Below are positions 1 to 1,240 of a stretch of 5,388 bases of DNA, piece after piece. A program made the translations under genes and the position numbers. This DNA is from Spirochaetia bacterium. GTDB lineage: Bacteria > Spirochaetota > Spirochaetia > Treponematales > Breznakiellaceae. Numbering within the stretch: the first letter of the stretch is position 1; each line of letters begins with the position of its first letter. The notes under the pieces were generated by a model, which made no database searches, was not told the DNA's origin, and worked only from the letters and a program-made list of their open reading frames with translations. Location: contig BOBG01000130.1 in the NCBI GenBank assembly GCA_026002265.1, positions 1 through 5,388 on the forward strand, written 5' to 3'.

Positions 1-30
1 GGCAATGGAAAATTTTGTGCCTATCTGCAT
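1..30 (-). CDS. start of a gene running off the left edge (partial, unidentified)
   Basis: Ten open codons, reading MQIGTKFSIA, run from an ATG at 30-28 to the window edge. A G-rich stretch (GCGGGG, complement of 37-42) sits six T residues before the ATG and resembles the G-run used by the first esterase. A good minus-strand promoter lies just upstream (52-80). The N-terminus loosely recalls methyl-accepting chemotaxis proteins, which often begin M-x-IGTK followed by a membrane segment, but ten residues are too few to assign a product. The promoter, ribosome site and ATG together are the main support. Confidence 0.4.
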   Translation of the reverse strand, partial: MQIGTKFSIA

Positions 31-51
31 AAAAAACCCCGCATAAGGTGT

Positions 52-80
52 AGTATAATAGGCTTTTCCGTTTTTTTCAA
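52..80 (-). promoter_or_regulatory. candidate sigma70-type promoter facing the left edge
   Basis: On the minus strand, TTGAAA (complement of 75-80) and TATACT (complement of 52-57) are separated by exactly 17 nt. Each box matches the consensus at five of six positions. It begins eight nucleotides past the stop codon of the radical SAM fusion gene. It would start a transcript around position 45, about 15 nt before the ATG at 30. This suggests the next gene is transcribed independently of the peptide locus. Confidence 0.5.
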
Positions 81-87
81 CGCGGGA

Positions 88-207
88 TTAGGCAATTCTA
101 ATAATCCGCCCCTCTTTGCGCGGCTTTACGGTGGGGGCTGTACCGTCAGGATAACCCAAAAGGACTATTGCCTTTGCTTCGTAACCTTCAGGAATGGCCC
201 ACTCTTT
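88..207 (-). other. nitroreductase C-terminal remnant fused in frame
   Basis: The last 39 codons of the radical SAM ORF (residues 239-277) carry the pattern typical of the end of FMN-dependent nitroreductases: IPEGYE, a hydrophobic strand, LGYPDG, then a Pro/Lys/Arg stretch (KPRKEG) and a final hydrophobic patch. In intact nitroreductases this follows the FMN-binding alpha/beta core, none of which is present. The simplest reading is that a nitroreductase gene once lay downstream of the maturase and a deletion removed the maturase's end and the nitroreductase's body. The junction is placed near 200-212. The assignment rests on remembered family motifs. Confidence 0.6.
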
Positions 208-921
208 AAAAGTGGTGCCACTGTCCTTGTATGTTTCAAATTTACGCCAGCAAATGTCCAAAAAAGCCTGGTATTCATCGGGCATTATGTGGGTGCTTTT
301 ATCAAAGGCTTGATTTGCCAAGCCGCTGGTCGGACAATATCGCGCAAAGGCGAATATATCAACATGGTTTTTAACAACGGTATCAATCAGCGCGGGTATT
401 TCATGTATATTTGTTCCCGAAACGGTAGTCATTATAACACTTTTTATTCCGGCATTATTGATGAGCGGTATTTTTTCCAGTGTTTCCGCAAAAGAACCGT
501 TTTTATGGATTGTGTCATGTGTTTCCGTTAAACCGTCAAGGGACATTTGATAGCGTTCACAACCAGCGGTGTATAATTTTTCGCAAACTTCACCCCTAAG
601 GTAAAAAGGATTTCCCATAAGGCTAAAAGCTATGTTTTTAGATTTAAGCAGTTCCAAAAGCCGCCAAAAATCCTTGTGTAAAATTGGGTCGCCGCCCGTG
701 ATATAAAAAAAAGGAATGTGGTTCGATTGACGTTCACCCGCAATATGCGGGTGGCTCAAGTTTTTACACATTGCTTCACTGGTTTCTACAACGGCCTGTA
801 ACTGTTCCCACGTCATTTCAACAATCGGCTTGCTGTTGTCCTCGGAAAAAATATAGCAGTGTTTACACCGCTGGCCGCAGGTGTCGGTAATATGCCACTG
901 GATAGAAAAATACTGTTCCAT
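88..921 (-). CDS. radical SAM peptide maturase (ACGX-type), SPASM region replaced by a nitroreductase-like tail
   Basis: This 277-residue protein starts at the ATG at 921-919, chosen because AAAGGA precedes it by seven nucleotides and the radical SAM fold begins directly after it. Residues 15-22 carry the CxxxCxxC motif that binds the [4Fe-4S] cluster and S-adenosylmethionine, followed by aromatic Y23. GGDP at 76-79 matches the usual glycine-rich SAM-binding strand, and SLDG at 127-130 a later barrel strand. Family knowledge: such enzymes, encoded next to a small precursor, make carbon-centred radicals and install crosslinks or epimerisations. SPASM-type maturases are normally well over 350 residues and end with a Cys-rich domain binding extra clusters. 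Here no such Cys array exists. From about residue 239 the protein reads as the end of a nitroreductase (IPEGYEAKAIVLLGYPDG, then a basic PRKEG segment). It is probably a deletion fusion and may be inactive. The maturase family is fairly sure; the fusion is inferred from motif recognition. Confidence 0.8.
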   Translation of the reverse strand: MEQYFSIQWHITDTCGQRCKHCYIFSEDNSKPIVEMTWEQLQAVVETSEAMCKNLSHPHIAGERQSNHIPFFYITGGDPILHKDFWRLLELLKSKNIAFSLMGNPFYLRGEVCEKLYTAGCERYQMSLDGLTETHDTIHKNGSFAETLEKIPLINNAGIKSVIMTTVSGTNIHEIPALIDTVVKNHVDIFAFARYCPTSGLANQAFDKSTHIMPDEYQAFLDICWRKFETYKDSGTTFKEWAIPEGYEAKAIVLLGYPDGTAPTVKPRKEGRIIRIA

Positions 922-1033: not shown

Positions 1034-1222
1034 TTATTTTTTGTCACCCGCACCACAGGCACTTGGCTTGGGCTTTTTTTCGCCTTTGTCATCATCACCT
1101 GCACCGCAGGAACCGGCAGCCATCGACACCAGCCCCGCATTCATAACGCCTTGAGCGCTCTTGTTCAAAGAAAACGCGCTCCCACCGCTCAACCAAACGG
1201 CCAATCCGTTCAATTTAGCCAT
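1034..1222 (-). CDS. RiPP precursor peptide with two CGAGD repeats (ACGX-repeat type)
   Basis: A 62-residue peptide starts at the ATG at 1222-1220, with AAAGGAG seven nucleotides upstream, a strong ribosome site. Residues 1-37 form a leader-like part without Cys, rich in Gly, Ala and Ser, with a hydrophobic start. The C-terminal 25 residues are a hydrophilic core with two units, SCGAGD (38-43) and ACGAGD (55-60), separated by a Lys/Asp/Glu/Pro-rich linker and ending in KK. The only two cysteines (C39, C56) are both in these units. This matches the 'ACGX-repeat peptide' class, recalled as the partner of 'radical SAM/SPASM, ACGX system' proteins. The maturase gene follows on the same strand after 112 nt, and the two are probably one transcript. 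The likely role is as substrate for Cys-directed or adjacent-residue modification; the mature product and its activity are unknown. The repeat number is low. No protease or exporter gene is visible in the window. Confidence 0.78.
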   Translation of the reverse strand: MAKLNGLAVWLSGGSAFSLNKSAQGVMNAGLVSMAAGSCGAGDDDKGEKKPKPSACGAGDKK

Positions 1223-1229
1223 AGTTTTA

Positions 1230-1236
1230 CTCCTTT
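1230..1236 (-). promoter_or_regulatory. ribosome binding site of the precursor peptide
   Basis: The minus strand reads AAAGGAG seven nucleotides before the ATG at 1222. It fixes the start of the peptide and argues that this short ORF is a real gene rather than a shadow of the longer frame on the same strand. Confidence 0.75.
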
Positions 1237-1240
1237 GCCC

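Follow-up and report, generated by a model that had tools for sequence, protein, structure and literature searches.

The minus strand of the analysed window, a stretch of 5,388 nucleotides from a spirochaete of the family Breznakiellaceae, likely carries a decaying RiPP locus of the ACGX type. A deletion there has probably placed the maturase's radical SAM core in one reading frame with the final 39 residues of a nitroreductase. The open reading frame concerned (88..921, minus strand) is predicted to encode a chimera of 277 amino acids, and the maturase of the window is probably inactive, as judged from its sequence.

The chimera can be divided into two parts: the radical SAM core of an ACGX-system maturase (residues 1-238; 208..921, minus strand), which is recognised by TIGR04340, PF04055 and a structural model and contains CxxxCxxC at residues 15-22, and a nitroreductase C-terminal tail (residues 239-277 plus the stop codon; 88..207, minus strand), which is recognised by sequence matches. 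In the alignment, the tail starts at residue 239, placing the junction directly after residue 238 (bases 207/208), in agreement with the first-pass annotation, and all 277 codons of the fusion are open, as that annotation had also stated. The longest frame in this region comprises 350 amino acids (88-1140), but the internal ATG at 921-919 (minus strand) was adopted as the start of the chimera because relatives start there. It is preceded by AAAGGAAC, which is read here as a ribosome-site-like sequence. Scans for promoters and terminators gave results no better than those from shuffled sequences. The plus strand of the window contains a possible remnant of a TnpB-type transposase (1353-1619; weak PF07282 match, E 0.00037, 21.1 bits versus a cut-off of 26.3) and two tandem genes of the carboxylesterase family PF00135 (1807-3516 and 3588-5180) that begin with similar signal-peptide-like stretches and may have arisen by duplication.

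Residues 3-239 match positions 1-222 of the 341 positions in the NCBIfam profile TIGR04340 (rSAM_ACGX) with about 320 bits, below the curated full-family cut-off of 400, and PF04055 scores 71.9 bits on the core; residues 1-238 by themselves give 319.7 bits over TIGR04340 positions 1-220. The cluster motif expected of a TIGR04340 maturase is present as C15-x3-C19-x2-C22 and a GGDP motif is found at residues 76-79, consistent with the earlier description of a radical SAM core of about 238 residues bearing both motifs. Pfam returns the radical SAM core alone for the chimera and does not find PF13186 (SPASM). The final cysteine is residue 224, and because no cysteine follows it, the SPASM clusters are lost, confirming the earlier observation that the Cys-rich SPASM region is absent. 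A protein search with the chimera gave 1903 matches passing the threshold, 120 of which were listed. In P0001, which is 85% identical over 86% of the query, eight cysteines lie within the region missing from the chimera, and 118 of the 120 relatives among the matches listed have eight or more cysteines within the C-terminal 115 residues; the two exceptions are P0099 (263 residues) and P0118. Like the TIGR04340 maturases P0001 and P0002, the chimera contains the radical SAM core, and as with TIGR04340 maturases an ACGX-type precursor gene lies upstream on the same strand; it differs from them by the absence of the SPASM domain, an 11-residue insertion, the nitroreductase tail and the sub-cut-off score.

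The AlphaFold2 model of the chimera has a mean pLDDT of 75.7, with block means of 87-98 over residues 81-190, a value of 52 for residues 21-30 beside the cluster motif, and values below 50 from residue 241 onward, corresponding to the tail. A Foldseek search recovered radical SAM enzymes, with the RiPP maturase SkfB as the top solved match, which says only that the modelled core has the expected radical SAM fold. The chimera may nevertheless adopt a radical SAM barrel fold, with the tail disordered.

The identity of the tail is based on sequence matches to nitroreductases, because no Pfam or NCBIfam model matches the 39 residues alone; PF00881 was found neither in the chimera nor in the tail. 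A 43-residue piece (88-219, minus strand) produced matches in 22 of 147 genomes at E<=0.01, own genome counted. Outside the own genome there are 21 such loci. In 20 of them, the frame at the match has a nitroreductase-like end and usually a length of 175-200 residues, while the frame recovered at the remaining locus, L041, is unrelated. The closest match is the nitroreductase fragment L023 (68% identity), and 19 other nitroreductase-like C-termini are similar. All ten frames submitted to Pfam, five from tail-match loci and five from ACGX loci, pass the PF00881 cut-off, and the tail matches the nitroreductases of L047-L051 with E values from 1.7e-11 to 3.4e-5. Residues 239-277 do have nitroreductase matches, and their earlier reading as a nitroreductase C-terminus holds on the genome matches, the PF00881-positive frames and the comparison with L047-L051.

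Gene order in relatives points to the source of this tail. TIGR04340 matches were detected in nine of 147 relatives (E<=1e-40) and in 11 of 392 genomes of the phylum (E<=1e-60), own genome included, and 16 ACGX loci from 15 genomes were examined with a profile built from the nitroreductases found by the tail search and compared with the tail. Both approaches pick the same five of the 16 loci, all of the same phylum. The nitroreductase gene is located directly downstream of the maturase gene on the same strand in L047, L048 and L050 and about 0.6 kb downstream of it in L051; in L049, it is flanked by the precursor gene on one side and the maturase gene on the other. The precursor gene was seen upstream in L047, L048 and L051; in L050, it was not identified by the filter used. 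Thus, L047 and L048 display the order precursor, maturase, nitroreductase with directly adjacent genes. The 39 residues of the tail align with the C-termini of the PF00881 nitroreductases adjoining the maturases in L047, L048 and L050, whereas the chimera is devoid of the remainder of the nitroreductase. No nitroreductase was detected in about 1.5 kb of flank in the other 11 loci, including L010, L012 and L013, which belong to the same family and encode full-length, cysteine-bearing maturases, and the tail has no match in L010-L018, the nine loci that TIGR04340 found beyond the own genome in the scan of 147 relatives. The order precursor, maturase, nitroreductase, earlier proposed as ancestral, is therefore real in some clusters, but for the ancestor of this cluster, and in this genus, it is presumed rather than seen, because L010, L012 and L013 show no flanking nitroreductase.

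An in-frame deletion between adjacent genes, as suggested in the first-pass annotation, best explains the core, the tail and the gene order of L047 and L048. The nitroreductase gene would have been located directly downstream of the maturase gene, and the deletion would have run from the SPASM domain through the end of the maturase gene and across most of the nitroreductase gene. Related genes share short A-/T-rich stretches at the position of the junction; a frame-keeping microhomology could not be aligned among them.

The combination of a SPASM-less maturase with the same tail was not seen in the 16 loci or among the 120 listed proteins; the first-pass annotation had named full-length homologues of this kind in many genomes as a finding that would speak against its reading. 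The same junction is present elsewhere only in a second copy on contig C3 of the same assembly. A scan of named genomes with the 277-residue protein returned two loci, both remote, which were set aside. The tail is matched by one of the 120 listed proteins, P0118, a 441-residue in-frame fusion of radical SAM, SPASM and nitroreductase parts that belongs to a cluster of 33 sequences. As in the chimera, an ACGX maturase is fused in frame to the C-terminal part of a nitroreductase, but P0118 retains SPASM and about 100 nitroreductase residues and has other breakpoints, and because the breakpoints differ it is probably an independent event. At the level of sequence, P0118 shows that the maturase-nitroreductase pair fuses elsewhere too.

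Several other relatives deviate from the typical architecture. By eye, the ACGX maturase relative at 1072-2169 of L014 (G018) has lost cysteines of both the radical SAM motif and the SPASM region in an open frame, and the relative at 2-643 of L017 (G012) has an open frame that has lost cysteines of the SPASM region and begins too late for its radical SAM motif to be judged. Both appear to be pseudoenzymes or products of decay, degenerate in another way than the chimera. In L016 (G003, same genus), a short relic (146-313) consists of a maturase N-terminus, up to and including CYIF, linked to a segment from further along the maturase and is located upstream of a second maturase copy that is cut by the contig end. 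The relatives P0021 and P0156 carry the source label Spirochaetia.

The core also contains a 33-base in-frame insertion (724..756, minus strand), corresponding to 11 residues at positions 56-66, and none of the 120 listed relatives has residues in these columns. The insertion, absent from the first-pass annotation, coincides with a dispersed palindromic repeat (725..753; stem arms 735-742 and 746-753) that reads CACCCGCA-ATA-TGCGGGTG. Five copies were found in two of 147 genomes, two in the own genome and three in G007, and none in the other 145, while a control with the reversed pattern gave no match in one scan and one in another. The second copy in the own genome (L045, G000:C3:19405-19433) has a compensated stem and forms part of the translated C-terminal end of a different open frame. 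Of the G007 copies (L067, L068 and L071), L068 is located inside a long open frame and the other two are in tandem upstream of a gene. Three of the five copies thus lie within an open frame or at its end and would be translated if those frames are used. As described in PMC3733652, intragenic REPs contain a CGTC or GTAG terminal tag beside a short stem-loop and, like the rickettsial palindromic elements, are small dispersed palindromes that can sit in reading frames and be translated. The element described here resembles them in these respects, but is limited to five copies in two genomes, and the CGTC/GTAG tag could not be confidently placed: by eye, ACGTTC precedes the stem in all five copies, which is near CGTC yet not CGTC. 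Judged by its sequence, the repeat looks like an uncatalogued REP-like element, which would have been inserted as a separate event. Thirteen viral-contig matches to the palindrome half-site were taken as chance, since by eye the second stem arm follows none of them.

The precursor gene (1034..1222, minus strand) encodes 62 amino acids with a normal leader and is preceded by the ribosome-site-like sequence CAAAGGAG (1230..1237, minus strand), seven bases before its ATG. Its assignment to the ACGX type is provided by 41 homologues at E<=0.01, itself included, three of the 40 others being named ACGX-repeat protein by the source; the ACGX-repeat model TIGR04341 gives 11.3 bits against a cut-off of 28, and Pfam returns no match for this frame. 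Residues 1-37 match P0122 but for two positions. With 62 residues the precursor is the shortest, compared with 64-107 in the 40 other homologues; its core contains two [AS]CG motifs, a number shared by only one of the 40, while relatives mostly have four or more, and two core blocks are missing in the alignment. In-frame losses would have shortened the core in this way. The earlier view that the precursor and its ribosome site are intact thus stands for the leader and for the ribosome-site-like sequence, but not for the core. The window's precursor (P0121) is recorded on two contigs, the longest with 40,878 bases.

Constraint on the maturase core was assessed by a leave-one-out comparison with the 120 listed relatives, with alignment columns grouped by conservation level. 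At the 90% level, the window core departs at nine columns, a number reached by one of the 120; at 95% there are seven departures versus a maximum of five among the relatives, at 98% five versus a maximum of four, and at 99% three, which two of the 120 reach. P0001 has no departure at the 98% level. When the four columns flanking the insertion are left out, five departures remain at 95% (reached by one of the 120), three at 98% (two of the 120) and two at 99% (seven of the 120). The window core thus appears changed at conserved positions more than nearly all 120 listed relatives, and the excess is moderate because it shrinks without the four columns beside the insertion. At four positions (Y71F, T109R, R139H and T213M), the window copy has changed, while the copy on C3 and P0001 keep the family residue.

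Decay is favoured because the SPASM domain is lost, the second copy is broken, the repeat is inserted, the precursor is shortened and conserved residues are changed. The auxiliary clusters of SPASM/twitch enzymes are stated as required for catalysis in PMC8188230, and a chimera without the auxiliary-cluster domain would modify a peptide poorly or not at all. According to PMC5491770, single auxiliary-cluster mutants of KW_cyclase still made product (C437A near the wild-type level, C406A and C419A at very low levels), and this residual activity speaks against decay, although loss of the whole domain would be expected to be worse than mutation of single ligands. Further points against decay are the open frame, the good ribosome-site-like sequences, a dN/dS between the copies that also fits weak constraint, the reduced excess of conserved-site changes without the insertion-side columns, the 82.9% completeness of the assembly, and the missing nitroreductase in the flanks of L010, L012 and L013. 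The insertion and the fusion both keep the frame, which would occur by chance in 1/9 of cases, though the open frame was itself what drew notice to the locus.

The first-pass annotation had left the choice between a dying cluster and a surviving short maturase; decay is now preferred, and survival retains a small probability, because the open frame and the good ribosome-site-like sequences stand against decay. It is unlikely that the core can still bind SAM without a SPASM domain and modify the two-motif precursor, enzyme and substrate having shrunk together. Survival would account for the retained CxxxCxxC and GGDP motifs in a well-predicted barrel, for the in-frame insertion and fusion in the window copy, for the normal leader and for the presence of the precursor on two contigs (up to 40,878 bases). 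It is opposed by the loss of the SPASM-region cysteines that 118 of 120 listed relatives hold, by the changed conserved residues, including the four that are specific to the window copy, and by an architecture unseen in the 16 loci drawn from 147 and 392 genomes or among the 120 listed proteins.

The second copy covers 1..712 of the window, fusion junction included, and is located at G000:C3:1-713 with 693 of 713 positions identical (about 97% identity). It does not contain the 5' part of the gene, and a one-base indel, with a stop within the matching region, breaks its frame. Between the two copies there are 12 nonsynonymous and six synonymous changes, giving a dN/dS of about 0.55 that is not distinguishable from neutral (P 0.18-0.43) and is compatible with neutrality or weak constraint. 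Both junction-bearing contigs start at the same base, and the repeat probably continues leftward beyond this shared start; C3 is either a true second copy or a contig of a sister strain. Across the own assembly, the tail matches in the two copies only, and TIGR04340 (E<=0.001) detects the two copies and a weaker match on contig C172 (73.6 bits), which was set aside as an intact maturase and taken as another radical SAM protein. With a completeness of 82.9%, the assembly could have failed to capture an intact maturase.

It is very unlikely that an error of assembly or binning created the fusion from two genes that the organism carries separately. With 5,388 bases the contig is short, the shared start of both contigs resembles a repeat-broken assembly graph, and the 277-residue protein is not among the 120 of 1903 matches listed in its own search, though the precursor was returned by its search; yet the same junction is found on two contigs that have diverged by about 3%, and it lies well inside both matches, away from the contig ends. 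Selection of the chimera as a new protein, with the nitroreductase arm recruiting the core to a nitroreductase partner, is hardly credible: nitroreductase C-terminal arms pack on the partner subunit and a different maturase-nitroreductase fusion exists in P0118, but just the last 39 residues are kept here, pLDDT is below 50 from residue 241, the tail finds no counterpart (E<=0.01) at the end of the PF00881 protein on contig C123 of the own assembly, and the C3 copy is broken.

A search for literature on the ACGX radical SAM RiPP class found none, and the papers listed for ACGX alone were unrelated as judged by title. As a decaying locus, the window would offer a readable case of the possible break-up of a RiPP cluster by border deletion, repeat insertion, core-repeat loss and partial duplication. 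There is a slim chance that the RiPP system is instead shrinking as a unit, in which a SPASM-free maturase with a translated mobile palindrome and a nitroreductase tail works on a two-motif precursor; if so, it would show how little a SPASM-class maturase needs, and activity of the chimera would directly test whether SPASM clusters are dispensable. The presence of a nitroreductase gene beside or near the ACGX maturase gene in five clusters of the same phylum helps to define this RiPP class.
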